This document shows positions 9,972 through 45,672 of a DNA stretch of 64,000 bases, piece by piece (the stretch's first letter is position 1; the number at the start of each line of letters is the position of its first letter). The notes under the pieces are model-generated. The model saw only the letters and a list, made by a program, of their open reading frames with translations, was not told where the DNA came from and did not search any database. Position numbers and translations under genes: made by a program. The stretch is from Magnetospirillum sp. ME-1 (GTDB lineage Bacteria; Pseudomonadota; Alphaproteobacteria; Rhodospirillales; Magnetospirillaceae), in contig NZ_CP015848.1 of the NCBI RefSeq assembly GCF_002105535.1, positions 744,907 through 808,906 on the forward strand. Reading direction: 5' to 3'.

Positions 9972-9982
9972 GAGCCAGTCCG

Positions 9983-10789
9983 ATGACCACCATCGACACA
10001 TCAGCCACCGCCGCCAATGCCGCTTCCGCCGCCACCGGCTCGGCCGCGGGCAAGGCGACCCTGGGCAGCAACTTCAACACCTTCCTGACCATGCTGACCA
10101 CTCAGCTGAAGCATCAGGATCCGCTGTCGCCCATGGACTCGACCCAGTTCACCAACCAGCTGGTCCAGTTCTCCAGCGTCGAGCAGCAGATCAACGCCAA
10201 TTCCAACCTGGAAAAGCTGATCAAGCTGCAGCAGACCTCGCAGACCAGCCAGGGCATCAACTATCTCGGCCAGACGGTCGAGATGTCGGGCACCGATCTG
10301 CCGCTGCAGGACGGCGCCGCGTCGCTGACCTATACGCTTCCCAAGGAAGCCCGCGACGTGAAGATCGCCATCCGGGATTCGTCGGGCGCGGTGGTCAAGA
10401 CCATCAACGGCGAGACCAAGGCCGGGGCCCACAGCCTCGACTGGGACGGCAAGAACTCGTCGGGTACCCAGTTGGATGACGGCCGCTATTCCATCACGGT
10501 GACGGCCACCGCCGCCGACGGATCGAGCATCACCACCACCAGCACCACCTTCGGGCGGGTCACCAAGGTCACCAACGACGCCACCAGCGGCACCACCCTG
10601 GTGATGGCCGCCGGGACCAAGGGCAACGACATCTCGCTCTCCATGGATAAGGTGGTCAGCGTCAAGGACAACACCAGCAGCATCAACACCGCCCAGTTGA
10701 ATGCCGCGAACGCCCAATACCAGGCCGCACTGGCGCAGCTTAATGCGCTGAAGGCCGCAACGAACAACACCGGCTCGAGCAGCCAGTAA
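9983..10789 (+). CDS. flgD: Flagellar hook assembly protein FlgD
   Basis: Hook-cap protein that scaffolds FlgE polymerisation. It is 268 residues. The conserved N-terminal part has LGSNFNTFLTMLTTQLKHQDPLSPMDSTQFTNQLVQFSSVEQQ (~31-72). The C-terminal part carries a FlgD Ig-like/Tudor-type region, including SLDWDGKNSSGTQLDDGRYS. It lies 11 bp after fliK and 23 bp before flgE. Confidence 0.95.
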   Translation: MTTIDTSATAANAASAATGSAAGKATLGSNFNTFLTMLTTQLKHQDPLSPMDSTQFTNQLVQFSSVEQQINANSNLEKLIKLQQTSQTSQGINYLGQTVEMSGTDLPLQDGAASLTYTLPKEARDVKIAIRDSSGAVVKTINGETKAGAHSLDWDGKNSSGTQLDDGRYSITVTATAADGSSITTTSTTFGRVTKVTNDATSGTTLVMAAGTKGNDISLSMDKVVSVKDNTSSINTAQLNAANAQYQAALAQLNALKAATNNTGSSSQ

Positions 10790-10812
10790 GAATTTAGGAT
10801 CAGGAGGATATC

Positions 10813-13317
10813 ATGAGCTTGTACGGCGCATTGTTCTCGGGTGTCTCCGGTCTGGCTTCTCAGTCCAGCGCCATGGGAGCCATCTCGGACAACATCACCA
10901 ACGTGAACACCACCGGCTACAAGGGTGCCAAGGTCAACTTCCAGACCCTGGTGACCAAGCAGGTCTCCCTGACCACCTATTCGCCGGGCGGCGTGCAGTC
11001 AAAGCCCCGCGCGGCCATCGACAACCAGGGCCTTCTGCAGGCCACGTCCAACTCCACCGACCTGGCCCTGTCGGGCCAAGGCATGTTCGTGGTCAACACC
11101 GACCCCGATCCCGCCACCTCGGGCAACGGCATGTTCGCCTATACCCGCGCCGGGTCGTTCAAGGTGGACAAGGAAGGCTATCTGCAGAACGTGTCGGGCT
11201 TCTATGTCCAGGGCTGGCCGCTGCAGCCCACCAACAACAACGTTCTGGCCAAGCCGACCGAACTGACCGTGGACGGCAACACCTATATGAAGGCCTACAA
11301 GCAGGCCGACGGCACCTTCCACTACGTCAACCAGAACATCATCAACCCGCAGGAAGTGAAGTCCCTCAATCTGAAGACCATCGGCGGCACCGCCGACCAG
11401 ACCACTCAGATCAAGATGGGCGCCAACCTGCCGTCGGGCGACACCATCTACAACCCGGCCAGCACCTCGTCGTCCGGCTATCACCAGACCAGCGTGCTGA
11501 TCTACGACTCGCTCGGCGACACCCACAATTTCAACGTCAACTGGACGAAGACCAATTCGAACCAGTGGGACGTGGAAACCAAGAGCAACTTCTACTCGGT
11601 GTCCACCACGCTGACCGACGTCAAGCAGAACTCGACCGCAACTCTCAAGCTCTATGGCGACGCCGCCGGCAACACCTCGAACGGCGTCTCCACGTTGCTT
11701 GCCTCGGGTACGGCGCTTGGCTATTTCGCCAGCACCGGGGCCATCGCCATGCCCACGGGCACGCTCGCCAGCAGTAACGTGCTGCCCGTCGGCACCATCC
11801 TCAACGTTTCGGGAGCATCGGGCACCGCCAGCACCAACAATGGCGATTGGTACGTCAAGACCGCCTTGACCACCAGCCCGACCATCACGGACACCGCATC
11901 CACCTCGATTACGATCGAAGTCGGGGGAGCCACGAAGAACTACACCGGGTCCTTCACGGCCGCGGGTCCGAACCTCGACTTCACGGGCGATGCCTCGTAC
12001 TCGGCCAGCCTCTTCTCGGCGGGCGACTACATCAAGGTCAGCAACACCCTCAGCGGCACGGCGAATACCGGCTATTACAAGGTCACCGGCACCCCCGCAA
12101 CCGACGCCCCCAAGCTGTTTCTGACCCCTGCCGACTACATCGTCACCTCCACCGCCCCCTATCTGGACCAGCGTGGCGTCACCCCGCCGTCGGGTGCCGC
12201 ATCCATGGACATCCTGGATCAATCCAATCCGTCTCTCGTCTATGCCAGCCAGGCCAGAATCGACTTCTCCGCCTCGTCGTTCTCCGACGTTCAGTCGCTG
12301 AATGCCAAGAGCTTCTCCATCACCATCAACGGCTACGATCTGAACGTCTATTTCGACACCACCGGCACGAAAGCACCGGCGGCGGGCCGGGAAGTCGTCA
12401 TCAACCTCAACAACGTCAACTACACCTCGGGCGCGGACGTCGCCACCTTGGTGGCCCAGGCCCTGCGCAATCCGAAGAACTGGGACGAAAACACGAACGC
12501 GGGCATCGCTGCCGGCAAGACCGTCGTGGCCCTGGGCAGCACGCTGCCGCTTTTCCGGGCCAATGGCTCTACCGTGGAAATCGTCCAGCAGTCCGGCGGC
12601 CCCACCGCCAAGTTCAACTTGTCGGGCATGGGAACCTCCGTCGCCCAGTCGCAGACCCGCAACTGGAGCTCGGCCATTCCTTCGGTCGATACCGTGGACG
12701 GCCTCTTCTACCTGAACACCATCACCGCCACCAACCCGGCCATCACCTTCAACGGCGACGGCACGCCGAAGCAGATCAACGTCGGCAAGATGGCGGTGAA
12801 CTGGGCCAACGGCGCGCAAAGCATGACCCTGGTGCCCAACGGCACCGGCGCCGACCAGCGCATCAGCTGGTTCGTGGGCAACACCTCGCAGGCCGACGGC
12901 ATGACCCAGCTGGGCGGCACCTACCAGCTGGCCTATCTCAGCCAGAACGGCGCCAAGTTCGGCAACTTCTCCGGCGTGTCCGTGGGCACCGATGGCGTGG
13001 TCACCGCCCTGTTCGACAACGGTGTCCGCCGCCCGGTGTTCCAGATCCCGGTGGCCACCTTCACCAACCCCAACGGCCTGGAATCGCTGACCGGCAATTC
13101 CTGGATCGAGACCAACACGTCGGGCACCTACACCCTGCGCCAGGCCAACAACGCGGGCGCCGGCTCGGTGCAGTCGGCCTCGCTGGAAGCCTCGACCGTG
13201 GATATCGGCGCCGAGTTCACCACCATGATCGTGACCCAGCGCGCCTACTCGGCGGCGGCCAAGATCATCACCACTGCCGACCAGATGCTGGACGAGCTGG
13301 TGCAGATCAAACGTTAA
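10813..13317 (+). CDS. flgE: Flagellar hook protein FlgE, oversized
   Basis: Structural subunit of the hook, exported by the flagellar type III system. The N-terminus (MSLYGALFSGVSGLASQSSAMGAISDNITNVNTTGYK) and the C-terminus (ASTVDIGAEFTTMIVTQRAYSAAAKIITT) are the standard helical D0 elements. At 834 residues it is about twice the enterobacterial size of ~400. The extra length lies in the central, surface-exposed part (~250-600), which is Ser/Thr/Gly-rich and poorly conserved. GGAGG precedes the ATG, and a strong terminator follows. Confidence 0.93.
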   Translation: MSLYGALFSGVSGLASQSSAMGAISDNITNVNTTGYKGAKVNFQTLVTKQVSLTTYSPGGVQSKPRAAIDNQGLLQATSNSTDLALSGQGMFVVNTDPDPATSGNGMFAYTRAGSFKVDKEGYLQNVSGFYVQGWPLQPTNNNVLAKPTELTVDGNTYMKAYKQADGTFHYVNQNIINPQEVKSLNLKTIGGTADQTTQIKMGANLPSGDTIYNPASTSSSGYHQTSVLIYDSLGDTHNFNVNWTKTNSNQWDVETKSNFYSVSTTLTDVKQNSTATLKLYGDAAGNTSNGVSTLLASGTALGYFASTGAIAMPTGTLASSNVLPVGTILNVSGASGTASTNNGDWYVKTALTTSPTITDTASTSITIEVGGATKNYTGSFTAAGPNLDFTGDASYSASLFSAGDYIKVSNTLSGTANTGYYKVTGTPATDAPKLFLTPADYIVTSTAPYLDQRGVTPPSGAASMDILDQSNPSLVYASQARIDFSASSFSDVQSLNAKSFSITINGYDLNVYFDTTGTKAPAAGREVVINLNNVNYTSGADVATLVAQALRNPKNWDENTNAGIAAGKTVVALGSTLPLFRANGSTVEIVQQSGGPTAKFNLSGMGTSVAQSQTRNWSSAIPSVDTVDGLFYLNTITATNPAITFNGDGTPKQINVGKMAVNWANGAQSMTLVPNGTGADQRISWFVGNTSQADGMTQLGGTYQLAYLSQNGAKFGNFSGVSVGTDGVVTALFDNGVRRPVFQIPVATFTNPNGLESLTGNSWIETNTSGTYTLRQANNAGAGSVQSASLEASTVDIGAEFTTMIVTQRAYSAAAKIITTADQMLDELVQIKR

Positions 13318-13350
13318 CCGTCCAATCCCTGAACCTGCTTCCTAACACCC

Positions 13351-13384
13351 AACCGGCGGCCAGAAGGCCGCCGGTTTAGTGTTT
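13351..13384 (+). terminator. Terminator after flgE
   Basis: AACCGGCGGCC (13351-13361) pairs perfectly with GGCCGCCGGTT (13366-13376) around an AGAA loop. It is followed by a T-rich stretch (TTTAGTGTTT). It separates the fliK-flgD-flgE unit from the fliF operon. Confidence 0.8.
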
Positions 13385-13413
13385 CGCGCCTCCCCGACTA
13401 CACAAAAACCCCA

Positions 13414-13432
13414 CCCGGCAAAAATTGCCGGG
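13414..13432. promoter_or_regulatory. Perfect inverted repeat upstream of fliF (candidate FlbD or other operator)
   Basis: CCCGGCAA-AAA-TTGCCGGG is an 8-bp perfect inverted repeat 92 bp upstream of the fliF start. It is immediately followed by TTAACCAT (13435-13442), which looks like a CtrA half-site. In Caulobacter, FlbD binds palindromic enhancer elements near flagellar promoters. The resemblance suggests an FlbD site, but I cannot align it to an experimentally defined consensus here. Confidence 0.45.
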
Positions 13433-13523
13433 CGTTAACCATCTCTTCAGCGGCAAGACCTTAGTCTGTCCTCTGGACGCGCCTGCCGGCCGGCGGCGTG
13501 CGCGTGCATCCGATGGAGACGAC

Positions 13524-15185
13524 GTGAACGCATTCCTGCAGATGCTGCGCGGCCTGGGGCCCATGCGGCTGGCCGCCATCGCTGGCGTCGGTGTCAGCAT
13601 CCTGGGCTTCTTCATCTATCTGATGAGCCGCGTCGCCGCGCCGCAGATGGAGCTGCTTTACGGCGATCTCGACCTGGGCGATTCCAAGGCGATCATCGAG
13701 AAGCTGACCGCCGACAAGGTCCCCTACGAACTCCGCAAGGACGGCACAGAGGTCTGGGTGCCCAAGGACCGCAAGCTGGACCTGCGCGTGCGCATGGCCG
13801 AACAGGCGCTGCCCGCCGGCGGCCGCATGGCCGGCTACGAGCTGTTCGACAAGCAGGACGCCCTGGGCTCCACCAGCTTCCAGCAGAACATCACCATGGT
13901 CCGCGCCCTGGAAGGCGAGCTGTCCAAGACCATCCGCTCCATCGACAAGGTCAAGGCCGCCCGCGTCCACCTGGTGCTGCCCAAGCGCGAGGCCTTCTCG
14001 CGCGATACCCAGGAACCGTCGGCCTCGGTGATCATCAAGATGAACGGCGCCCAGCGCCTGGACAAGGGCCAGGTCAGCGCCATCCAGCACCTGATCGCGG
14101 CCGCCGTGCCTAAGATGAAGCCGTCGCGCATCTCCATCGTCGACGACAAGGGCACCCTGCTGGCCAAGGGCTTCGAGAATTCCAAGGAATATCAGGCCCA
14201 AAGCGCCGAGGAAATGAAGGTCAAGACCGAGGCCAAGCTGGTCAAGACCATCGAGGACCTGCTGGAGCGCTCGCTGGGTCCGGGCCGCGTGCGCGCCGAG
14301 GTCACGGTGGACATGGACATGAGCCATGCCACCACCACCGAGGAAACCTTCGATCCCGAGACCAAGGTGGTCCGCTCCCAGGTCACCGTCAACGAGGGCG
14401 AGCAGAGCCAGGACGCCGAGCCCACCCCGGTCACCGTGCAGCAGAACCTGCCCGATCCCAACGCCTCGTCCTCGGGCAACATCCGCACGTCCACCAAGAT
14501 CAACAAGAACCAGGAAACCGTGAACTACGAGATCTCGCGCAAGACCAAGAGCACGGTGCGCGAGATCGGCGAGATCAGAAAGGTTTCCGCCGCCGTCATC
14601 GTCGACGGCGTGCGCGAGCAATCGGCCGACGGCAAGCAGACCTCGTACCGCGACCGCACGGCGGAAGAGCTGTCGCAGATCGAGGCGCTGGTCAAATCCG
14701 CCATCGGCTACACCAAGGACCGCGACGATCAGGTCAAGGTCGCCTCCATGCCCTTCTACAAGGGCGAGGAACTGCTCCAGGCCGAGGAACCCGGCGAGTT
14801 CATCTTCGGCATGCGCCGCGACTTCGTCGAGAAGGTGGCGTCGAACCTGGGCCTGTCCGTGGTCGCCATCCTGTTCCTGCTCCTGGTGCTGCGCCCGCTC
14901 ATCAGCCGCGCCATCGAGTCCATGCAGGGCCAGGTGGGCCCCGACGGCCGCCGCCTGCTGACCGCCGAGGGCGGCGCCATGCCGCAGCTCACCGGCCCCG
15001 GCGCGGCCGCCATGCCGGCGCCCTTGGGCGGCGAGGAAGAGGTCATCGCCGACGAGCTCATCGACATCGACAAGGTGGAAGGCCGCGTCAAGGCGTCCTC
15101 GATCCGCAAGATCGGCGAGATCGTCGACAAGCACCCGGAAGAGGCCCTGTCCATCATCCGCAACTGGCTCTACCAGGAAAGCTGA
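13524..15185 (+). CDS. fliF: Flagellar MS-ring protein FliF
   Basis: Forms the membrane/supramembrane ring of the basal body. It is 553 residues with a TM helix at ~17-37. The YscJ/FliF ring-building domain (~40-215) includes LDLRVRMAEQALPAGG and KAARVHLVLPKREAF. A second TM lies at ~440-460, and the C-terminal cytoplasmic tail, which binds FliG, ends SIIRNWLYQES. The GTG at 13524 is preceded by GGAG at 13514 and gives the expected short N-terminal lead; the frame is open further upstream. First gene of the fliF-fliG-fliH-fliN-flbD-flhA run. Confidence 0.95.
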   Translation: MNAFLQMLRGLGPMRLAAIAGVGVSILGFFIYLMSRVAAPQMELLYGDLDLGDSKAIIEKLTADKVPYELRKDGTEVWVPKDRKLDLRVRMAEQALPAGGRMAGYELFDKQDALGSTSFQQNITMVRALEGELSKTIRSIDKVKAARVHLVLPKREAFSRDTQEPSASVIIKMNGAQRLDKGQVSAIQHLIAAAVPKMKPSRISIVDDKGTLLAKGFENSKEYQAQSAEEMKVKTEAKLVKTIEDLLERSLGPGRVRAEVTVDMDMSHATTTEETFDPETKVVRSQVTVNEGEQSQDAEPTPVTVQQNLPDPNASSSGNIRTSTKINKNQETVNYEISRKTKSTVREIGEIRKVSAAVIVDGVREQSADGKQTSYRDRTAEELSQIEALVKSAIGYTKDRDDQVKVASMPFYKGEELLQAEEPGEFIFGMRRDFVEKVASNLGLSVVAILFLLLVLRPLISRAIESMQGQVGPDGRRLLTAEGGAMPQLTGPGAAAMPAPLGGEEEVIADELIDIDKVEGRVKASSIRKIGEIVDKHPEEALSIIRNWLYQES

Positions 15186-15197
15186 GGAGGTCTTTAG

Positions 15198-16217
15198 ATG
15201 GCGCGCGTCAAGGAAGACTACCGCAGCCTCACCGGCCCCCAGAAGGCCGCCATGTTCATGCTGTCCTTGAACGAGGAGCACTCGTCCAAGCTGTTCGGCA
15301 TGCTGGGCGACGACGAGATCAAGGAACTGTCCCAGATCATGGCGTCCTTGGGCACCGTGTCGTCCAATCTGGTGGAGCGCGTGTTCGTGGAATTCGCCGA
15401 CGCGCTGTCGTCCACCGGCTCGCTGACCGGCTCGTTCGACACCACCGAACGCCTGCTGATGAAGAGCCTGCCCAAGGATCGCGTCAACTCCATCATGGAG
15501 GAAATCCGCGGTCCCGCCGGCCGTACCATGTGGGACAAGCTGGGCAACGTGTCCGAGCAGGTGCTGGCCAACTACCTGAAGAACGAATACCCCCAGACCG
15601 TCGCCGTGGTGCTGGCCAAGATCAAGCCCGACCACGCGTCGCGCGTGCTGGCCATCCTGCCCGAGAACTTCGCCATGGAAGTCATCATGCGCATGCTGCG
15701 CATGGAGGCGGTGCAGAAGGAAGTGCTCGACGGCGTGGAAAAGACCCTGAGGACCGAGTTCATGACCAACCTCGCCCGCACCCAGCGCCGCGACGCCCAC
15801 GAACTGATGGCCGACATCTTCAACAACCTGGACCGCAACACCGAAAACCGGTTCATGTCGGCCCTGGAAGAGCGCAACCGCGAAAGCGCCGAGAAGATCA
15901 AGGCGCTGATGTTCACCTTCGACGACCTCACCCGCATCGACGCCGCCGGTATCCAGGTGCTGCTGCGCTCGGTGGAAAAGGACAAGCTGGCCATCGCGCT
16001 CAAGGGCGGCGCCGACGCCGTCAAGGAGCTGTTCTTCAAGAACATGTCCGAACGCGCCGGCAAGATGCTGCGTGAAGACATGGAGGCGCTGGGTCCGGTG
16101 CGCTTGCGCGACGTGGATCAGGCCCAGGCGGCCATCGTGGTCATGGCCAAGGAACTGGCGGCATCGGGACAGATCGTCATCTCCGAAGGCCGCGAGGAAG
16201 ACGAGCTGGTGTACTAA
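15198..16217 (+). CDS. fliG: Flagellar motor switch protein FliG
   Basis: C-ring protein that couples the MotA stator to rotor torque and direction. The 339 residues match the family size. The N-domain has [20 protein letters not shown]. The middle domain contains [27 protein letters not shown], with the EHPQ-like motif as EYPQ. The C-terminal torque helix region includes [30 protein letters not shown]. It is separated from fliF by 12 bp with an AGGAGG site. Confidence 0.96.
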
Positions 16218-16220
16218 TCC

Positions 16221-16898
16221 ATGGCATACCAGAAATACATGTTCGACCTGGATTTCGGTCCGCCGCCGGCCAACCGGCCCAAGGCGGCCGAACCGGCCGA
16301 GGATGCCTATCAGACCGAGGCCGAGCCCGAGCCGCCGCCGCCGCCTACCTTCACCGAGGAGGACCTCCAGGTGGTGCGCGAGGCCGCCTACGAGGAGGGC
16401 CACCGCAACGGCATGGCCGAGGCCAACGAGACCCAGCAGGCCCTGCTGGCCGCCTCGCTGGAGCGGGTGTCCAACGCGCTGGCCATGCTGGACAACGCCC
16501 AGGCCGACGCCAACGACACCAACCAGCGGGTGGCCGCCCGCGTGGCCATGGCGGTGCTGAAAAAGGTGCTGCCCGCCGCCTGCGAGCAGAACGCCTTCGA
16601 GGAGATCGTGCGGACCGTCCACGAATGCCTGGGCCATGTGCTCGACGAGCCGCGCATCATCGTCCGGGTGGATTCCGCACTGGTCGATCCCATGCGCGAA
16701 CGCCTGGAGCAGACCGCCATCGAACACGGCTTCGAGGGCCGCGTGGTGGTCCAGGCCGACCCCCGGGTGGCCATCGGCGATTGCCGGGTGGAATGGACGG
16801 ACGGCGGTGCCGAGCGGGATCAGGCCCGCCTGATCGCCGACATCGAAGCGGCGGTGAACCGGGCCCTGGCGCCGCCCGAAAATCGCCCGGAAGAGTAA
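16221..16898 (+). CDS. fliH: Flagellar assembly protein FliH-like
   Basis: Probable stator/regulator of the export ATPase FliI. It is 225 residues with a Pro-rich N-terminal segment (~10-45). A helical central part has VREAAYEEGHRNGMAEANETQQALL, in the style of FliH glycine-repeat helices. The C-terminal domain has RIIVRVDSALVDPMRERLEQ and GDCRVEWTDGGAERD, matching the FliH/YscL tail. It lies 3 bp after fliG and 12 bp before fliN. Assignment rests on the C-terminal pattern plus position. Confidence 0.85.
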   Translation: MAYQKYMFDLDFGPPPANRPKAAEPAEDAYQTEAEPEPPPPPTFTEEDLQVVREAAYEEGHRNGMAEANETQQALLAASLERVSNALAMLDNAQADANDTNQRVAARVAMAVLKKVLPAACEQNAFEEIVRTVHECLGHVLDEPRIIVRVDSALVDPMRERLEQTAIEHGFEGRVVVQADPRVAIGDCRVEWTDGGAERDQARLIADIEAAVNRALAPPENRPEE

Positions 16899-16910
16899 CT
16901 GGAGGTCATC

Positions 16911-17240
16911 ATGCCCGATTTCGAACTCAACGACTTCAAGCCGGAAGGCGAAGATCAGGTAGGACGCGGCGATGTTCCGGACATGCCGCGATCGGCCCGC
17001 GACCTGGAAGCCGTCTACGACATCCCGGTGCAGGTCTCGGCGGTGCTGGGCAAGGCCACCATGCAGGTCAACCAGCTGTTGAAGCTGGGACGCGGCGCGG
17101 TGGTGGAACTGGACCGCAAGGTGGGCGAGGCCATCGACATCTACGTCAACAACCGCCTGGTGGCGCGCGGCGAGGTGGTCGTGGTGGAAGACCGCCTGGG
17201 CGTGACCATGACCGAAATCATCAAGACCGACCGGGCCTAA
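16911..17240 (+). CDS. fliN: Flagellar motor switch protein FliN
   Basis: C-ring component of 109 residues. The SpoA domain (~38-109) reads YDIPVQVSAVLGKATMQVNQ, LLKLGRGAVVELDRKVGEA and IYVNNRLVARGEVVVVEDRLG, and ends in the conserved TEIIKTDRA. No fliM is present in the window, so the third switch protein must be encoded elsewhere. Tight spacing with fliH and flbD supports one transcript. Confidence 0.95.
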   Translation: MPDFELNDFKPEGEDQVGRGDVPDMPRSARDLEAVYDIPVQVSAVLGKATMQVNQLLKLGRGAVVELDRKVGEAIDIYVNNRLVARGEVVVVEDRLGVTMTEIIKTDRA

Positions 17241-17266
17241 AAGCGCTCTAGCGGGAGAGGGACGAC

Positions 17267-18643
<1,377 letters not shown>

Positions 18644-18647
18644 AGCC

Positions 18648-20759
18648 ATGGCAGAAGGACAGGCCCAGAGCCAAAGCGCAGGCAGGGATATCCTGGACCG
18701 CTTCGCCGCGTCGGCCCGACGCGGCGACGTGGGCCTGGCGTTCGGCATCATCGTCATCCTGATGGTGCTGATCCTGCCGCTGCCGCCGTGGCTGCTCGAC
18801 ATCGGCCTGGCCCTGTCTCTCACCATCTCGGTGCTGATCCTGATGGTGGCCATCTTCATCGAGAAGCCGCTGCAGTTCAGCTCGTTCCCGACGGTTCTGC
18901 TGCTCACCACCCTGATCCGGCTGGCGCTGAATCTGGCCTCGACCCGACTGATCCTGTCCCATGGCCATGAAGGCGTCGAGGGCGCCGGACAGGTGATCGC
19001 CGCCTTCGCCAGCTTCATCATGAGCGGCAGCTTCGTCATCGGCATCATCGTCTTCGCCATCCTGGTGATCGTCAATTTCGTGGTCATCACCAAGGGCTCG
19101 ACCCGTATCGCCGAAGTGGCGGCGCGCTTCACCCTGGACGCCATGCCCGGCAAGCAGATGGCCATCGACGCCGACCTGTCGGCGGGCCTGTGCGACGAAC
19201 CCACCGCCCGCAAGCGCCGCGCCGAGCTGGAGGGCGAATCCGCCTTCTTCGGCGCCATGGACGGCGCGTCCAAGTTCGTGCGCGGCGACGCCGTCGCCGG
19301 CCTGATGATCACCGCCATCAACGTCATCGGCGGCATGATCATCGGCATGGCGCAGCAGGGCCTGACCTTCAGCCAGGCGGCCGAGTTCTACACCAAGCTG
19401 ACGGTGGGCGACGGTCTGGTCACCCAGGTCCCGGCCCTGATCGTCTCGGTGTCGGCGGGCATGCTGGTCACCAAGGCCGGCGTGCAGGAAGCGGTGGACC
19501 GCGCCCTGTTCGCCCAGCTGGCCGGCTATCCCCGCGCCGTGGGCATGGCCGGCGCGCTGATGACCCTGATGGCGCTGGTGCCCAACATGCCGTTCATTCC
19601 CTTCGCCCTCTTGGGCCTGGGCATGGGGGCTTCGGCCTTTCTGCTGGACCGCGACCAGCGGGCCAAGGCCGAGCAGCAGGTACAGGAGGCCGAAGCCGAG
19701 GCGCTGCAGCAGGCGCCGATCCCGGAAGAGCCCATCTCCACCGCGCTCAAGATCGACCACGTGCGCCTGGAGCTGGGCTATGGCCTGCTGCAGCTGATCA
19801 ACACGCCCAAGGGCCAGCGCCTGACCGACCAGATCAAGTCGCTTCGCCGCGCCATCGCCACCGAGATGGGCTTCGTCATGCCGTCGGTGCGCATTCAGGA
19901 CAACATGCAGCTGCCGGCCAACACCTACGTCATCCATGTGAAGGAGGTGGAGGCGGGCCGAGGCGATCTGCGCCCCGCCGCATTGCTGATCATGGACCCC
20001 CGGGGCGAGGACATCACGCTGCCGGGCGAGAAGACACGCGAGCCCACCTTCGGCCTGCCCGCCATGTGGATCGACCCCACCAACCGCGAGGAAGCGCTGT
20101 TCCGCGGCTATACCGTGGTGGACCCGCCCACCGTGATCACCACCCACCTGACCGAGGTGATCAAGGACAACATGAGCGAGCTGTTGTCCCATGCCGAGAC
20201 CCAGAAGCTGCTGGACGAGCTGGACAAGGAGCACCAGAAGCTGATCGCCGAGCTGATTCCCAGCCAGATGACCATCGGCGGCCTGCAGCGGGTGCTGCAG
20301 AACCTTTTGGGCGAGCGCATCTCCATCCGCGACCTGCCCACCATCCTGGAAGGCATCGCCGAGGCCTGCGGCCATACCCGCAACGTCACCATGATCACCG
20401 AGCACGTGCGCGCCCGCCTGGCACGGCAGATCTCGGACAACAACACCGGGCCGCAGGGCTTCATCCCGCTGGTGACCCTGTCGCCGGAATGGGAGCAGGC
20501 CTTCGCCGAATCCCTGGTGGGCACCGGCGAGGAAAAGCAGATCTCCATGGCGCCGTCGCAGCTGCAGGACTTCATCAGCCGCACCCGCCAGACCTTCGAA
20601 CGCTTCGCCATGCAGGGCGAGACCCCCATCCTGCTGACCAGTCCCATGGTCCGGCCCTATGTGCGTTCCATCGTCGAGCGCTTCCGGCCCATGACCGTGG
20701 TGATGAGCCAGTCGGAAATCCATCCCAAGGCCCGCATCAAGACACTGGGGCAGATCTGA
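18648..20759 (+). CDS. flhA: Flagellar export apparatus protein FlhA
   Basis: Nonameric inner-membrane export gate of the flagellar type III system. It is 703 residues. About eight TM segments lie in the N-terminal half, beginning ~30. The FHIPEP-type cytoplasmic loop shows KGSTRIAEVAARFTLDAMPGKQMAIDADLSAG. The C-terminal cytoplasmic domain follows (~340-703). It begins 4 bp after flbD. Length and motifs are normal. Confidence 0.97.
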   Translation: MAEGQAQSQSAGRDILDRFAASARRGDVGLAFGIIVILMVLILPLPPWLLDIGLALSLTISVLILMVAIFIEKPLQFSSFPTVLLLTTLIRLALNLASTRLILSHGHEGVEGAGQVIAAFASFIMSGSFVIGIIVFAILVIVNFVVITKGSTRIAEVAARFTLDAMPGKQMAIDADLSAGLCDEPTARKRRAELEGESAFFGAMDGASKFVRGDAVAGLMITAINVIGGMIIGMAQQGLTFSQAAEFYTKLTVGDGLVTQVPALIVSVSAGMLVTKAGVQEAVDRALFAQLAGYPRAVGMAGALMTLMALVPNMPFIPFALLGLGMGASAFLLDRDQRAKAEQQVQEAEAEALQQAPIPEEPISTALKIDHVRLELGYGLLQLINTPKGQRLTDQIKSLRRAIATEMGFVMPSVRIQDNMQLPANTYVIHVKEVEAGRGDLRPAALLIMDPRGEDITLPGEKTREPTFGLPAMWIDPTNREEALFRGYTVVDPPTVITTHLTEVIKDNMSELLSHAETQKLLDELDKEHQKLIAELIPSQMTIGGLQRVLQNLLGERISIRDLPTILEGIAEACGHTRNVTMITEHVRARLARQISDNNTGPQGFIPLVTLSPEWEQAFAESLVGTGEEKQISMAPSQLQDFISRTRQTFERFAMQGETPILLTSPMVRPYVRSIVERFRPMTVVMSQSEIHPKARIKTLGQI

Positions 20760-38932: not shown

Positions 38933-39925
38933 TTATTTAGTTTTGGAGGCACTCCCATTTGGGAGGGCGACCGGCAGGCTCAGGATAAGCCGGACCAATT
39001 CTGCCTGCCGGGCCTTGCCGGTCTTGGCGAAAATCTGCTTCAGGTATCCCCGCGCCGTACCAACGGTAATGCCCCCTTCCACGGCGGCCTCGTCAAGGGA
39101 CAAGCCGCGCGCCATGGCATGGGCGAGTTTGGCTTCGGCATGGGTCAGTTCCAGCAGGCGCATCACCTCGTTGGCATTGGGAATGGGATGGTTGTCGGGA
39201 TCGGAAATGTAAAGTGCGGCCTTTGGCGTGCTGCCCCCTCCTTCCAGGGCGGTCACCGCCACCGACAGCGGAGAGGCATCGGACCGGGATAGACGCATCA
39301 CGCCGTCATCTCCGGTCTGGATCGCCGATACGATCAGCGCATGCAGATGGGATGTTTCAACCGGCGTGGCAGCGCGGCAGACCTTTCGTGCCCCGATGAT
39401 GATGCCGTCCCCGGCGGCACTGAAGGCCCCTCCCAGTCGGTTCATGAACAAGACCCGGGCGTCGGCATCCACCACCAGGATGGCAACAGGGAGTTTGTCC
39501 AAGGCCGTATCGGCAAAAGTATCTGCCGTGGGCACGGGCATGGGGTCTGGCGTGGCCAGGGCCGCCTCTATCCCCTCAACCAACAGGAACGAAGGACAGG
39601 GCTTGGTGAAAAAACGGAATATCTCCGCCTGGTTTATGGCGTCGATGGCGGTCCGCAAATCGGCCGTGCCCGTCAGAACGATATAACGAGCCGTATCGCC
39701 GATGCGCCGCATGGCCATAACCATCTGGAGGCCGTTCATGCCCGGCATTTTCATGTCGGTCACCACCACCTGGGGCTTCCACGTCCGGTACGTCTCCACA
39801 GCCGCCTCTGGGGACGACTGGAACTCCATCTCCCAGCGCGCAGCCTGAGGATGCAGGGACCGGCGCAAAGCCGCCAGAACCCGGATATCGTCGTCAACAA
39901 ACAGGATACGGGCTTTGCAAGACAT
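38933..39925 (-). CDS. Response regulator with PAS-like linker and LuxR-type HTH
   Basis: A 330-residue DNA-binding regulator. The receiver (~4-120) has Asp in VVVTDMKMPGMNG and Lys in FRFFTKPC. The central part (~145-245) shows AILVVDADARVLFMNRLG, as in PAS/LuxR regulators. The C-terminal LuxR HTH (~255-320) reads LTHAEAKLAHAMARGLSLDEAA and TVGTARGYLKQIFAKTGKARQAELVRL. It is first gene of the signalling operon and is divergent from the octapeptide-repeat gene, so it is a candidate regulator of that gene and of its own operon. Confidence 0.9.
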   Translation of the reverse strand: MSCKARILFVDDDIRVLAALRRSLHPQAARWEMEFQSSPEAAVETYRTWKPQVVVTDMKMPGMNGLQMVMAMRRIGDTARYIVLTGTADLRTAIDAINQAEIFRFFTKPCPSFLLVEGIEAALATPDPMPVPTADTFADTALDKLPVAILVVDADARVLFMNRLGGAFSAAGDGIIIGARKVCRAATPVETSHLHALIVSAIQTGDDGVMRLSRSDASPLSVAVTALEGGGSTPKAALYISDPDNHPIPNANEVMRLLELTHAEAKLAHAMARGLSLDEAAVEGGITVGTARGYLKQIFAKTGKARQAELVRLILSLPVALPNGSASKTK

Positions 39926-39966
39926 AGACCCTACGCTTCCGGATGCTCCGCGCCAGCGAACCACGA

Positions 39967-40002
39967 TAACGCGGTTCCCTCCGGCTCGGAACATCCGCGT
40001 TA
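39967..40002. promoter_or_regulatory. Large dyad between REC-LuxR gene and repeat-protein gene
   Basis: TAACGCGG (39967-39974) is inverted as CCGCGTTA (39995-40002). Between them is an inner GTTCC / GGAAC pair. A third half-site GGCGTTA follows at 40007-40013. The dyad lies 42-77 bp upstream of the regulator start and 71 bp upstream of the repeat gene start. That is a fitting place for an operator controlling both. Confidence 0.5.
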
Positions 40003-40072: not shown

Positions 40073-43000
40073 GTGGTCTCGCCTGTCTCATTCCTGACAG
40101 CCACACAGATCTCCGCCCTTACGGTGACGGCGGTGCAGTCGCTGTCGTCGGCATCGCTGACAGCCCTGAACGCGACGCAGGTCCAGGCGTTCACCGTCAC
40201 CAACATCCAGGCGCTGTCGTCGACTCAGATCAGCCAGTTGGGCACCACCCAGGCGGCGGCGCTGACCACCACCCAGATTCATGCCCTGACCCCCGGCCAG
40301 ATGGGCTTCACGCCCACCCAGCTGTCGATCCTGAGCGCCGCCCAGGTGGACGCCTTCGACGCCGCCGAGGTCGCCGTGCTCTCCAGCCTGCAGATCAGGG
40401 GCCTGACCGTCACCGAGGTGGGAGCGCTGAACACCACCCAGGTCGCCGTCCTGGCCTCGACCCAGCTGGGGGCGCTGACGGCAAGTCAGGCGCGCGGGCT
40501 GACATCGACCCATCTGAACGCCGTCACCACCACGCAGATGGCCGGGCTGGGCAGCACTCATCTGGGGGCGTTGAACACCACGCAGATTTCCGGCCTGACC
40601 ACCACTCAGCTGGCGGATCTCACCACCACCCAGGTGACGGGCTTTTCCACCACCGGCATTTCCGGCATCTCCACCACCCAGCTGAACGCGCTCAGCTCCA
40701 CCCAGCTGGGCAGCCTGACGCGGACCCAGGTCGCCGGGTTGAGCTCCACCCATGTTTCCGCGCTGGATACCACCCATCTCAACGCCTTGACCGCCACCCA
40801 GATCGGCGGAATGACCGTCACCCAGGTACGCTCGCTCAGCACGACGGTGGTGGCCGATCTCACCTCGACCCAGGTGGCGGCCCTGTCCGCCGCCCAGGTG
40901 GCGGCGCTGACCACCACCCAGGTGGCGGGGATCGAGACCACCGATGTGGCGGCGCTCTCCACCACCCAGATGGCGGCGCTGGAACGCACCGACCTGGGCG
41001 TCATGTCCACCACCCAGTTCGCCAGTCTGGCCGCGACCCAGCTGGCCGCGCTGACGGCAACCAACGTCACCGGCCTGACCACCACCCAGCTGGCGGCGGT
41101 GTCCACCACCCAGATCACCGGCCTGGCCTGCACCCAGGTCAGCAATTTGACCGCCACCCAGATGGGCGGATTGACCACCACCTCGCTGGCGGCGGTGTCC
41201 ACCATCCAACTGTCGCAATTGTCCGCCACGGCTGTACGCGCGCTCAGCACCACCCAGGTCGGGGGGCTCTCCACCACCCAGGTGGCGGGCCTGGGCTTCA
41301 CCCAGCTGGTGCAGTTGACCACGACCCAGCTGACCTCCATCTCCACCACCCAGCTGTCGGCGCTGACCACGACCCAAATGGGCATGCTGACCCAGACGCA
41401 GGTGGCGGGTCTCACCACCACCGAGGTGGGGCAGCTCTCCACCACCCAGCTGTCGGCCCTGAGCGCCACCGGCATCGCCAGCCTGACCACGCCGCAACTG
41501 GGAAGTTCCTCGACCACCCAGGTGGCGGCGCTGACGGTGACCCAGATCGGCGGCCTGACCCTCACCCAGATCGGCGGCCTGTCCACCACCCAGCTGGCGG
41601 CGGTGTCCACCACCCAGTTGAGCCGGCTCAGCCTCACCCAGTTGCGCGGACTGACCACCACCGAGGTCGATTCGCTGTCGACCACGCAATTGAGCGGACT
41701 GACCGCCACCCAGTTCAGCAGCCTGACCGCGTCGCAGCTGGGCGCGGTCTCCACCACCAGCCTGGCGACGCTGTCCACCACCCAACTGGGCGGATTGTCC
41801 TCGGGCGTGCTGGTGGGGATGACCTCCACCCAGCTCACCAACCTGACCACCACCCAGATGGGGGGATTGACCACCGCCCAGACCCGGGGCTTCACCGCCA
41901 CCCAGCTGGGGGCGTTCACCACCACCCAGCTTGCCGCCCTGTCCACCACCCAGGTGGCCGGACTGACCACCACCCAGATCAACGGCCTGTCCACCACCAC
42001 CCTGGACGCCATGACCACCACCCAGCTGCGCTCGCTGAGCGTGTTGCAGGTGGCGGCGCTGTCGTCGTCGGGTCTGGCCGGACTGACCACCACCGACCTG
42101 AACTCGCTGACCACTGTCCAGGTCGCCGGACTGGAAGCCACCGATGTGGCCGCGCTGTCCACCACCCAGGTCGCGTCGTTGCAGACCACGCAGTTGTCGG
42201 CGATGACCGCGTCCCAGATGACCGGCTTGAGCTCATCGCTGATCAACGCCTTGACGACCACCCAGGTCGGCAGCCTGACCTTCACCCAGGTCGGCGCGCT
42301 GACCGCCACCCAGCTCGGGGTTCTGGACACCACCGACCTGGCCCAGCTGTCCACCACCCAGCTCAGCCGGCTGAGCTCCACCGCGGCCGCATCCCTCACC
42401 ACCACCCAGATCAACGGCCTCACCTGCACTCAGCTGGGCAGTTTGGCGGCGGCATCCTTCGCTGCGCTGAACACCACGGATCTGGCGTCGCTCTCCACCA
42501 CCCAGATCACCGGGGTCGGCGCCTTCCAGCTGATCGCCCTGACCGCGACCCAGGCCGCCGGCCTGACCACCACCGCGCTTTCGACCTTTTCCACCACCCA
42601 GATCGCCGGCCTGTCCGTCACCGGTCTGGCGGTGCTGTCCTCCACCCAGCTCAATACCATCGCGACCACCCAGATCACCGCGCTGACCACCAACCAGACG
42701 GCCAGGCTGACCGCGACCCAGCTGGCCGCCCTGGACACCACGTCGCTCAGCGCGCTGACCACCACCCAGGTCGGCACCCTGTCCACCACCCAGGTGGGAG
42801 GCATCACCACCACGGGGCTGGTGGCTCTTTCCACCACCCAGCTCTGCAACCTGCGCGCCACCGCCATCGCCACCTTGGCCACCACCAAGCTCGCGGCGCT
42901 GTCCTCCACCCAGGTCGGCGGACTGACGACCACCGCGGTGGCGGCGCTCAGCGCGTCGGGCGTGGGGGCCTTGACCACCACCCAGGTGGGAAGCCTTTCC

Positions 43001-44404
43001 ACCACCCAGCTGGCGTCCATCAGCGGCGCCAGCATCCGTGGCCTGACCACCACCGAATTGGGATCCCTTTCCACCACCCAGGCCGCCGGCCTGTCCTCGT
43101 CGCTGCTCGGCGCGCTGACCGCCACCCAGTTCAATGGCCTGTCCACCACCGGCCTGGCCCAGCTGTCGACCACTCAGATGACGGGTCTGGTCGCCGCCCA
43201 GTTGGGCGGGCTGTCCACCACCATGGCGACCGGGCTGTCCACCACGGGTCTGGTCGGCCTGACCGCGACCCAGGTCAGGTTCCTTTCGACCACCAATCTG
43301 CAAGCCCTGAGCACGACCCAGTCGGCGGCTTTGACCACCACCCAGATCGCGGGATTGACGGCCACCCAGGTTCGCGGCCTGTCCACCACCACCCTGGGCA
43401 ACCTGTCCACGACCCAGGTCAACGGCCTGTCCCTGGGCAATGTCACGGCGCTCACCACCACGCAGATGACCGGACTGAGCTCGACCGCCATCGGCTCGCT
43501 GAGCACCACCGGCATCGCCCAATTGAGCGCCACCACCATAACGGGGCTGACATCGACCCAGATTACCGGGCTGACCACCACCCAATTGTCGCGGATCACC
43601 ACCACCTCGGTCGCGGCCCTGTCCACCACGGCTCTTACCGGTCTGTCGACCACCCAGCTGGCCGGCCTCAGCGCCACCCAGGTCGCCACCCTGACCACCA
43701 CCCAGATCGGCGGACTGACCTCCACCGAGGCGCAGGCGTTGACCACCACCCAAATCGGCGCCCTGACCGCCACCAGCATGACGGGCCTCAACACCACCCA
43801 GTTCTCGACGCTCACCACCACCCAGGTGGCGGCCATCAGCGCGGCCCAGGCCCGCGGCCTGGATTCCACCGATTTCAGCGCCCTGTCCACCACCCAGCTC
43901 GGCAGCCTGGGCGCCACCACCCTGGGTTCCATACTCTCCACCGCCGTGCCCGGGCTGAACTCGCTTTCGCTGGCGGCACTCTCCACCACCCAGGTCAGGG
44001 GCCTGAGCGCCACCGTCATGGCGGTGCTCAAGACCAGCCAGCTGGACGGGCTGACCAGCACCCAGGTGGCGTCCCTGATTTCCACCCAGCTTCGCGGACT
44101 GAGCTCGACCGGGATCGGAGGGTTGTCGTCGACCCAATTGGCAGCCGTCACTTCCGCCCAGCTCGGCGCCCTGACCACCGCCCAGTTGGCGGCCCTGTCC
44201 TCCACCAGCGTGGCCAATCTGACCACCAGCCAGATCGACGGCCTGACCGCCACCCAGGCGGGGGCGCTCTCGTCGGCCAGCGTGGCGGCACTGTCCACCA
44301 CCCAGATCCTGTCGCTCAGCACCACCCAGGCCGCCGCGCTCAACGCCACCCAGATCGCCGCCTTGAGCACTACCCAGATCGACAGTCTGGTTACGTTGTT
44401 CTAA
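40073..44404 (+). CDS. Giant octapeptide-repeat protein, unknown function
   Basis: A 1443-residue protein made almost entirely of octads Leu-[Ser/Thr]-x-Thr-Gln-[Val/Ile/Leu]-x-[Gly/Ala]; typical units are LTTTQVAG and LSTTQIGG. The first ~78 residues follow the octad loosely, with one 7-residue unit (LTPGQMG). From 40307 the Leu codon recurs every 24 bp without phase change up to 44386, exactly 170 units; the chain then ends LVTLF. The protein is rich in Thr, Ser, Leu, Ala and Gln and very poor in Lys, Arg, Asp, Glu and Cys. No signal peptide, TM or other domain is seen. The GTG start at 40073 has GGAAG 9 bp upstream. Other frames stay open only because the repeat is a multiple of three. I know of no function. 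Confidence 0.85.
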   Translation: MVSPVSFLTATQISALTVTAVQSLSSASLTALNATQVQAFTVTNIQALSSTQISQLGTTQAAALTTTQIHALTPGQMGFTPTQLSILSAAQVDAFDAAEVAVLSSLQIRGLTVTEVGALNTTQVAVLASTQLGALTASQARGLTSTHLNAVTTTQMAGLGSTHLGALNTTQISGLTTTQLADLTTTQVTGFSTTGISGISTTQLNALSSTQLGSLTRTQVAGLSSTHVSALDTTHLNALTATQIGGMTVTQVRSLSTTVVADLTSTQVAALSAAQVAALTTTQVAGIETTDVAALSTTQMAALERTDLGVMSTTQFASLAATQLAALTATNVTGLTTTQLAAVSTTQITGLACTQVSNLTATQMGGLTTTSLAAVSTIQLSQLSATAVRALSTTQVGGLSTTQVAGLGFTQLVQLTTTQLTSISTTQLSALTTTQMGMLTQTQVAGLTTTEVGQLSTTQLSALSATGIASLTTPQLGSSSTTQVAALTVTQIGGLTLTQIGGLSTTQLAAVSTTQLSRLSLTQLRGLTTTEVDSLSTTQLSGLTATQFSSLTASQLGAVSTTSLATLSTTQLGGLSSGVLVGMTSTQLTNLTTTQMGGLTTAQTRGFTATQLGAFTTTQLAALSTTQVAGLTTTQINGLSTTTLDAMTTTQLRSLSVLQVAALSSSGLAGLTTTDLNSLTTVQVAGLEATDVAALSTTQVASLQTTQLSAMTASQMTGLSSSLINALTTTQVGSLTFTQVGALTATQLGVLDTTDLAQLSTTQLSRLSSTAAASLTTTQINGLTCTQLGSLAAASFAALNTTDLASLSTTQITGVGAFQLIALTATQAAGLTTTALSTFSTTQIAGLSVTGLAVLSSTQLNTIATTQITALTTNQTARLTATQLAALDTTSLSALTTTQVGTLSTTQVGGITTTGLVALSTTQLCNLRATAIATLATTKLAALSSTQVGGLTTTAVAALSASGVGALTTTQVGSLSTTQLASISGASIRGLTTTELGSLSTTQAAGLSSSLLGALTATQFNGLSTTGLAQLSTTQMTGLVAAQLGGLSTTMATGLSTTGLVGLTATQVRFLSTTNLQALSTTQSAALTTTQIAGLTATQVRGLSTTTLGNLSTTQVNGLSLGNVTALTTTQMTGLSSTAIGSLSTTGIAQLSATTITGLTSTQITGLTTTQLSRITTTSVAALSTTALTGLSTTQLAGLSATQVATLTTTQIGGLTSTEAQALTTTQIGALTATSMTGLNTTQFSTLTTTQVAAISAAQARGLDSTDFSALSTTQLGSLGATTLGSILSTAVPGLNSLSLAALSTTQVRGLSATVMAVLKTSQLDGLTSTQVASLISTQLRGLSSTGIGGLSSTQLAAVTSAQLGALTTAQLAALSSTSVANLTTSQIDGLTATQAGALSSASVAALSTTQILSLSTTQAAALNATQIAALSTTQIDSLVTLF
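40307..44386 (+). repeat. 170 tandem degenerate 24-bp repeats (coding)
   Basis: The repeat consensus is about CTGACCACCACCCAGGTGGC plus four variable bases. Leu codons fall at 40307 + 24n; I checked 41219 (TTG), 42059 (CTG), 43499 (CTG) and 44387 (CTG), all in phase. Individual units differ at many bases, including synonymous ones, so this is an old array rather than a fresh expansion. Confidence 0.9.
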
Positions 44405-44514: not shown

Positions 44515-44550
44515 AGGCCACCCGCCTTCCGACGGGTGGCCTCTTTTCTT
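44515..44550. terminator. Bidirectional terminator, repeat gene / recA
   Basis: AGGCCACCCG (44515-44524) pairs with CGGGTGGCCT (44533-44542), followed by CTTTTCTT on the plus strand. On the minus strand the stem is followed by TTTGTTGT. It can therefore end both the repeat gene and recA. A further small hairpin, GCGCGCT-TTC-AGCGCGC, lies upstream at 44446-44462. Confidence 0.8.
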
Positions 44551-44592: not shown

Positions 44593-45672
44593 CTATTCCT
44601 CGACCGGCGTGCCGTCCAGATCGCCGGGACCGCCGGCCAGGGCCTCGGAAATGAGGCCGGCGTTCTGGCGGATGGCGCCCTCGATCTCGGCGGCCATGGC
44701 CGGATTGTCGCGCAGGAACTGCTTGGCGTTCTCGCGGCCCTGGCCGATGCGGGTGGAATTGTAGGAGAACCACGCCCCCGACTTCTCCACCACGTTGGCC
44801 TTGACGCCGAGATCGATGAGCTCTCCCATCTTGGAGACGCCCTCGCCGTACATGATGTCGAAATCCACCACCTTGAACGGCGGGGCCAGCTTGTTCTTCA
44901 CCACCTTGACGCGGGTCTGGTTGCCCACCACCTCGTCTCTGTCCTTGATGGCGCCGACCCGGCGGATCTCCATGCGCACCGAGGCATAGAACTTCAGCGC
45001 GTTGCCGCCGGTGGTGGTCTCCGGGTTGCCGAACATCACGCCGATCTTCATGCGGATCTGGTTGATGAAGATGACGATGGTCTTGGACTTGGACACCGAG
45101 CCGGTCAGCTTGCGCAGCGCCTGGCTCATCAGGCGGGCATGCAGGCCCATGTGGTTGTCGCCCATCTCGCCTTCCAGCTCGGCGCGCGGCACCAGGGCGG
45201 CCACCGAGTCCACCACGAGGACGTCGATGGCGCCCGAACGCACCAGGGTGTCGGCGATTTCCAGCGCCTGTTCGCCGGCATCGGGCTGGCTGATCAGCAA
45301 TTCGTCGAGGTTGACACCCAGCTTGCGGGCGTAGACGGGGTCCAGCGCATGCTCGGCGTCGACGAAGGCGCAGGTGCCGCCCTTCTTCTGGGCCTCGGCG
45401 ATGACGTGCAGCGCCAGCGTGGTCTTGCCCGAGCTTTCCGGACCATAGACCTCGATGATGCGCCCGCGCGGCAGGCCACCGATGCCCAAAGCCACGTCCA
45501 GACCCAGCGACCCGGTGGAGATCACCTCGGTCTCGACCACCTGGTCCTTCTGGCCCATCTTCATGATGGAGCCCTTGCCGAACGCCCGCTCGATCTGGCT
45601 GACGGCGGCTTCCAAAGCCTTCTGTCTATCCATGGTATCCTTGTCCACGAGACGCAATGCAGCCTGAGACAT
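44593..45672 (-). CDS. recA: Recombinase A
   Basis: DNA strand exchange protein and SOS co-protease. It is 359 residues. Walker A is GPESSGKT (77-84). It has the MAW motif region, [29 protein letters not shown] (loop L2) and an acidic C-terminus DLDGTPVEE. Upstream is an alphaproteobacterial SOS box (45732-45746). It is followed by a terminator and is monocistronic by appearance. Confidence 0.98.

Follow-up and report, generated by a model that had tools for sequence, protein, structure and literature searches.

Genomic evidence for an OGT-like glycosyltransferase partner of the ALTTAQ-repeat rod proteins

What is a protein built almost entirely of one octapeptide for? The question is raised by a 64,000-nucleotide stretch of Magnetospirillum sp. 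ME-1 (contig NZ_CP015848.1, positions 744,907 to 808,906; hereafter the window), in which a gene with a GTG start at 40073..44404 on the forward strand encodes 1443 residues. The original prediction, made from the sequence alone, described about 178 octads, named no described function for them and left the role open. A dynamic-programming split recovered exactly 178 octads over 98.7% of the protein. The protein is nevertheless not unlike anything described: the same octad occurs in a solved chain, HeliScrew4 (PDB 9zem), and the protein scores 522.5 bits (E 5e-161, 53 stretches) against Pfam PF20080, ‘ALTTAQ repeat’, passing its curated cut-off of 26.4 bits, while no NCBIfam model matches it. 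By its sequence it belongs to this known, catalogued but uncharacterised family and is not a new one; the original prediction named placement in a well-characterised repeat family as grounds against it, and PF20080 is catalogued without being well characterised. We propose, with a probability of about 0.7, that ALTTAQ rods are acceptors O-glycosylated on Thr/Ser in the cytoplasm by a dedicated clade of GT41 glycosyltransferases related to O-GlcNAc transferase (OGT), that some are then exported to serve outside the cell as rods, spacers or an adhesive coat, and that the window copy is modified in trans.

The evidence that carries this proposal comes from gene neighbourhoods in a sample of 55 genomes of the bacterial family, 29 with ALTTAQ genes and 26 without. 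A profile of the conserved N-terminus (alignment A1) recovered 36 N-termini at E ≤ 1.2e-29, the best internal repeat scoring 6.5e-21. Two more, in G019 (E 4e-22) and G051 (E 5e-21; G denotes a genome and L a locus or region record), score like internal repeats and were accepted because they lie at the gene start, giving 38 genes defined by their N-terminus; genes with other N-termini fall outside this count. A GT41 gene lies directly downstream on the same strand in 20 of the 38, 13 have none and five run off the contig; for five of the twenty, the gene end was read in a separately fetched piece or placed by coordinates and frame length. Every genome holding one of the 13 unlinked genes also has a linked copy. 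The distance from ALTTAQ stop to GT41 start, measured at 20 loci (15 among the 38 genes plus L095, L130, L136, L151 and L152), ranges from −1 to 139 bp, with a median of 34.

The mere presence of a GT41 was rejected as a signal, since 52 of the 55 genomes encode one of some kind; only clade and adjacency are informative. In a tree of 74 GT41s, built by a quick method with midpoint rooting, Shimodaira–Hasegawa-like approximate likelihood ratio (SH-aLRT) support, no bootstrap and a hand-picked sample of unlinked enzymes, 36 linked rows and L177 fall on one side of a branch with SH-aLRT 99 and the other 37 lie outside it. L177 had been labelled unlinked, and an ALTTAQ gene lies about 2.5 kb away on its contig (L198); the L131 and L133 enzymes join the linked clade on a long branch. 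A search of the 55 genomes, with one clade member as query and the best 21 candidates scored per genome, returned 33 matches of at least 661 bits, the next match falling to 411 bits. None of the 33 is farther than about 3 kb from an ALTTAQ gene, second copies of the enzyme being found about 2 kb from the array. The clade was detected in 25/29 ALTTAQ-positive and 0/26 ALTTAQ-negative genomes (Fisher p 1e-11, uncorrected for kinship).

The linked enzymes resemble characterised OGTs. The GT41 of L082 matched XcOGT (2jlb) at E 4e-94 and human OGT at E 7e-93 and, in an alignment of this one enzyme, keeps the His at XcOGT position 218 and the Lys of the aligned YKLN/HKIN stretch, which we take to be catalytic residues. 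Unlike XcOGT and human OGT, the linked clade is tied to ALTTAQ genes. Together, these observations make a strong genomic case that ALTTAQ proteins have a dedicated OGT-like partner, and this is the new result. In the openly licensed PMC literature we found no paper making the ALTTAQ–GT41 link, none that gives PF20080 a role, a partner enzyme or a route of export, and nothing on ALTTAQ, HeliScrew or 9ZEM. The earlier statement that the function is open can be narrowed by the linkage to GT41 and secretion genes in relatives, which was not visible from the window sequence.

The pairing extends beyond the bacterial family. PF20080 was found in 7 of 387 genomes of the class, the window genome included; a clade GT41 lies beside ALTTAQ in G223 and G428, and GT41, HlyD and a HlyB-like ATP-binding cassette (ABC) gene share a 6-kb stretch with it in G198 (Niveispirillum cyanobacteriorum) and G279. 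We also viewed 18 named loci, most of them records already counted, among which two Azospirillum loci (L151, L152) hold linked ALTTAQ–GT41 pairs. From 56 matching plasmid records, 15 were opened, picked for diversity and not at random. Ten of them carry a GT41 within 10 kb of ALTTAQ (L207–L210, L212, L213, L216, L218, L219 and L221, one a Pseudomonas); L210 and L218 are near copies, and the gap in L219 is 4.6 kb. Plasmid pA of Cereibacter sphaeroides 2.4.1 encodes HlyD, a C39-type ABC protein, GT41 and an ALTTAQ protein of 1561 residues side by side, and the Pseudomonas locus has TolC, HlyD and ABC genes upstream and GT41 downstream. A Calx-beta/RTX (repeats-in-toxin) protein, a typical kind of type I substrate, adjoins the C. 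sphaeroides 2.4.1 cassette (L212:13204-16293). Genes resembling UDP-glucuronate decarboxylase occur near ALTTAQ in L130 and L135 (one genus) and in L207, where the record itself carries that annotation, and 12 kb away in L220, a hint of UDP-xylose supply in some lineages. The annotations of PF20080 proteins vary: some are called hypothetical, and plasmid records H57, H60, H62–H68 and H70 use ‘large exoprotein’, ‘ICE nucleation protein’ or ‘heme utilization protein’. Our structural models give no support for ice nucleation.

Genes for a type I secretion system (T1SS), an ABC protein together with HlyD, adjoin ALTTAQ in five loci: L131, L133 and, among the 15 plasmid loci, L207, L212 and L213. 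In L131, HlyD passes the TIGR01843 threshold (292 versus 209 bits) and the ABC protein falls below that of TIGR01846 (606 versus 726). L134 encodes a fusion of an ALTTAQ array with a Cadherin_4 domain. These cassettes and the cadherin fusion support export in the lineages that have T1SS cassettes, as judged from gene content. A match to the cassette ATPase at E ≤ 1e-100, with the best 20 candidates scored per genome, was found in 20/29 ALTTAQ-positive and 7/26 ALTTAQ-negative genomes (p 0.003); the ATPase genome counts do not support T1SS as a universal export route.

How would the window protein itself fit this scheme? Its genome, a single contig of 4,551,873 bases, holds two further ALTTAQ genes, of 4586 and 2817 residues, and two GT41s are encoded behind the 4586-residue paralogue (PF13844, E 7e-82 and 4e-84), with matches to tetratricopeptide repeats (TPRs) in addition. 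Among orthologues of the window gene, a clade GT41 follows the ALTTAQ stop after 21 bp in L081 and 3 bp in L082, and L204, probably a third such orthologue, also has one adjacent. The window copy and the orthologues nearest to it have none beside them. Most simply, these copies would have lost the linked enzyme, and the pair of GT41s encoded behind the 4586-residue paralogue would serve all copies. A radical-SAM-like gene, recognised by eye, lies directly upstream of the 4586-residue-type paralogue in the window genome and five others (L009:18911-19900 with L010; L064:13227-14573 and equivalents).

The octad itself is highly regular. The window protein is 37–40% identical to itself at lags of 8, 16 and 24 residues (0.37–0.40), versus 0.06–0.14 at the remaining lags examined up to 24. 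As noted originally, it has almost no charged residues or cysteine (51 charged of 1443 and 3 Cys by our count), and it contains neither Trp nor Tyr. AlphaFold2 models were obtained for residues 1–240, using 18 sequences including 17 relatives (predicted local distance difference test score, pLDDT, 94.6; predicted template modelling score, pTM, 0.85), and for residues 567–806, using five window segments as the sole sequences (pLDDT 90.4, pTM 0.81). Both show one helix per octad, mostly five residues long and beginning directly after Ser/Thr, and the 480 modelled residues contain no β-strand. The capping box with hydrophobic staple and one-turn helix start postulated for each octad agrees with both models. 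The models support a rod-like helical solenoid of one-turn-helix octads. By the octad split and these models, the positions run as follows: N′ (Leu, 84%), Ncap (Ser/Thr, 82%), N1 (Ser/Thr, 69%), N2 (Ser/Thr, 87%; Thr, 82%), N3 (Gln, 65%), N4 (Leu/Val/Ile, 84%), N5 (Ala/Gly/Ser/Thr, 77%) and C (Ala/Gly, 67%). They repeat without interruption through an array of 169 octads at 40331..44386 (+), nine further octads preceding the phase break described below. In the 4586-residue paralogue, Ser/Thr reach 82% at N1 and 93% at N2.

The best solved match by sequence is HeliScrew4 (phmmer E 9.5e-12), which shares the octad L-[ST]-x-x-Q-[IV]-x-[AG] with the window protein but is only 120 residues long. 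The AlphaFold models have the HeliScrew-type features of one short helix per eight residues, Ser/Thr at Ncap and a Gln-like N3; the likeness to 9zem itself comes from sequence, 9zem being absent from the best 50 Foldseek matches in both searches. Unlike most natural octads, the 12 HeliScrew4 octads that were compared have no Ser/Thr at N1 or N2 (0/12), carrying Pro at N1 in 10/12 and Glu/Asp at N2 in 12/12, so hydroxyls at these positions are not needed for such an octad. Foldseek against the PDB ranked mesothelin best for both models, which we did not accept as the same fold at a query TM score of only 0.20–0.44; against viral models the best TM score was 0.33 and nothing was informative. Matches in Pfam and the PDB to leucine-rich repeats (LRR), EndoS-LRR, CAAP1, HTH_25, sigma-70 and the like were set aside as compositional cross-hits, since the helical octad accounts for the periodicity of the repeat.

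A conserved N-terminal cap region, residues 1–86 (40073..40330, +), is common to the paralogues and distant relatives in alignments A1 and A2. It ends in the only phase break of the window protein, a seven-residue unit following ‘QMGF’ (residues 80–86; 40310..40330, +). The break stands at the same place in the 1443-, 4586- and 2817-residue proteins and in L082; a break of this type was not found in the C. sphaeroides, Niveispirillum or L085 proteins, and in L085 and L086 one extra residue restores the octad at the site. A strict motif for the break is present in 32 of the 35 N-termini recognised by script, at residue 76 in 28 of these, and is missed by the window, L062 and L088 proteins.

Length is also conserved. 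Of seven same-genus orthologues, five have exactly 1443 residues and two have 1444, upstream extensions of the open reading frame (ORF) having been trimmed at the conserved start in four; the window protein and orthologues make eight, and in the two whose octads were counted there are 178 each. Four orthologues show 70–83% amino-acid identity in register versus about 38–42% when slid by whole octads, with a ratio of nonsynonymous to synonymous substitution rates (dN/dS) of 0.27–0.40. The other three (L081, L082 and L083) reach 46% in register versus 39–43% slid (dN/dS 0.62–0.70), and their orthology would rest mainly on length and N-terminus. Because the seven orthologues are open over their full length, the window ORF is not an artefact of codon bias; we read the long antisense ORFs opposite it (565, 607, 846 and 398 residues) as by-products of the repeat. 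The 2817-residue paralogue has an identical length in four species at 71–89% identity. In G039 its open frame is just 601 residues (L067:11195-13000).

We propose the following mechanism. A dedicated, TPR-containing, OGT-like GT41 clade would attach sugars to Thr/Ser of the rod in the cytoplasm, the N1 and N2 hydroxyls serving as acceptor sites and the Ncap hydroxyl as a structural element. In several lineages the glycosylated rod would leave through the neighbouring type I system and work outside the cell as a rod, a spacer or an adhesive coating; in others, linkage to flagellar genes suggests the flagellum as an alternative destination. The window copy would be a stand-alone paralogue that receives its sugars in trans from the pair of GT41s encoded behind the 4586-residue protein. 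The giant Thr-rich ALTTAQ rods thus probably carry a coat of sugars, and part of them would be destined for the cell exterior. Beyond the predicted fold, the family membership, the conserved length and the gene neighbourhoods, we infer that GT41 modifies the rod, at which sites and with which sugar, that the window copy may be exported, and what the rod finally does.

Two known systems offer parallels. The gene of HMW1C, a GT41 enzyme, adjoins that of a large exoprotein, which the enzyme modifies in the cytoplasm (PMC3983070), and the ALTTAQ pair has the same arrangement, a GT41 gene adjoining the gene of a large (here proposed) acceptor. HMW1C differs in its AAD domain, N-glycosylation and two-partner secretion; the ALTTAQ side has TPRs, a Thr/Ser-rich helical solenoid as proposed acceptor and, where present, type I genes. 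FlmG of Caulobacter combines, like the ALTTAQ-linked GT41, TPRs with a glycosyltransferase domain; its TPR domain binds flagellins, which FlmG O-glycosylates in the cytoplasm (PMC7591256). There the acceptor is flagellin and the donor pseudaminic acid, while here the acceptor would be ALTTAQ.

Several observations weigh against our proposal. No GT41 lies beside the window gene or next to 13 of the 38 family copies, and none was seen at further copies outside the 38 (L197, L200, L201), near ALTTAQ in G086 and G174, at the second copies in G198 and G223, in a Caulobacter metagenome-assembled genome (L153) or in five of the 15 plasmid loci (L211, L214, L215, L217, L220). In four ALTTAQ-positive genomes the clade search found no member: G005, with no GT41 on its 7.8-kb contig; G006, where tblastn located a different GT41-like protein 334 bp from the ALTTAQ start; G008; and G031, with a single weak match. 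On the export side, no T1SS genes adjoin the window gene, and at E ≤ 1e-100 no homologue of the cassette ATPase was found, among the best 20 candidates per genome, in its genome or in G019, G023, G024, G031, G037, G039, G041 and G043. Because no close ATPase was found in the window genome, T1SS export cannot be asserted there. Above about 580 bits, the ATPase enrichment falls to 10/29 ALTTAQ-positive versus 4/26 ALTTAQ-negative genomes (p 0.13), and no signal peptide is visible in the window protein on inspection by eye. By residue counts, GT41 linkage does not simply follow the share of Thr at N1/N2: hydroxyls occupy these positions in 40/63% of octads in the L085 protein, which is linked, versus 31/67% in the unlinked 2817-residue paralogue, and those of C. 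sphaeroides lie almost solely at N1 (96/12%).

These points bear on three rival explanations. The protein could be a structural rod or ruler that never leaves the cytoplasm; the constant count of octads would define a length, and glycosylation by GT41 would make the rod more stable. That neither a signal peptide nor a close ATPase was seen fits this, as does the retention of 1443–1444 residues by the window protein and its seven orthologues even where identity (46%) nears the shifted background (39–43%), and the exact length of the 2817-residue paralogue in four species. Constant length may, on the other hand, mean just that diverged DNA repeats do not slip, and relatives have T1SS cassettes and the cadherin fusion; we consider an internal ruler unlikely. 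The Thr-ladder β-solenoid or ice-binding protein that the original prediction carried as an alternative would draw on the Thr-rich octads and on the ‘ICE nucleation protein’ label of some Cereibacter relatives, a name alone. We rejected it on two confident models without a strand and, with HeliScrew4 as the best solved-sequence match and the 60 of 77 matches listed containing no ice-nucleation protein, regard it as extremely improbable.

The remaining rival places the ALTTAQ protein at the flagellum, through flagellar type III export or as a decoration of sheath, hook or filament, with the GT41 as an FlmG-like flagellar glycosyltransferase. In two Magnetospirillum-type genomes, a FlgE-family hook gene begins 11–12 bp behind the ALTTAQ-linked GT41 (L085:1195-2745, L086:17257-18807), which suggests that ALTTAQ, GT41 and hook gene form one operon there. 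A flagellar export cluster lies upstream of ALTTAQ and GT41 in Rhodovastum, flgE and two flagellins adjoin the pair in Pseudorhizobium, the Ser-rich, signal-less N-terminus is conserved, and FlmG provides a precedent (PMC7591256). This linkage is confined to these few loci, five others having a type I system instead, and a close homologue of the L085 hook gene (at least 120 bits) turned up in only 3 of 100 sequences; the three share a genus, and one is L085 under another record. More distantly related are the window's own hook gene, lying 27 kb off, and that of L216; both score below the threshold. The window hook gene (10813-13314, about 27 kb upstream of the ALTTAQ gene) encodes a FlgE-family protein of 834 residues with hook D1 and D2 domains, which is long for a hook protein. 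A flagellar role of the ALTTAQ protein appears unlikely to us, and glycosylation of ALTTAQ rods by the linked GT41 clade, with export in some lineages, remains our preferred interpretation.

In its immediate surroundings the window gene stands alone. The upstream response-regulator gene (38933-39994, −) points away from it, and recA (44593-45672, −; named by eye) converges on it from downstream. Between the two convergent genes, an inverted repeat followed by a T-rich run (44516..44550, no strand assigned), read by eye from the letters, is a probable shared terminator of the ALTTAQ gene and recA. A scan for RNA families returned only one tRNA. In a genome of another family, a second ALTTAQ gene also adjoins recA (L129:7559-8701 and 8991-18671), in an orientation unlike that of the window, which may be coincidence.

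We judge the chances evenly balanced that ALTTAQ and TPR-GT41 together constitute an unrecognised O-glycosylation system: a mucin-like brush on a rigid helical screw, with rods of up to about 4,600 residues bearing up to hundreds of regularly spaced Thr-linked sugars, some lineages supplying their own type I exporter and UDP-xylose, and Paramagnetospirillum having up to three rods of lineage-fixed length that share two enzymes also acting in trans. PF20080 proteins reach 4586 residues here, and with a single GT41 clade linked to it the family acquires a function that can be tested. Most bacterial OGT-like enzymes have, to our knowledge, no known substrates, and ALTTAQ rods offer them an obvious candidate acceptor. 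With Thr/Ser at fixed places in every eight residues, such a rod would serve as a clean natural scaffold on which to study the reading of repeated substrates by OGT, and is a potential biomaterial. Cereibacter sphaeroides 2.4.1, with the full cassette on plasmid pA, is a tractable host in which this proposed function of the family may be approached.

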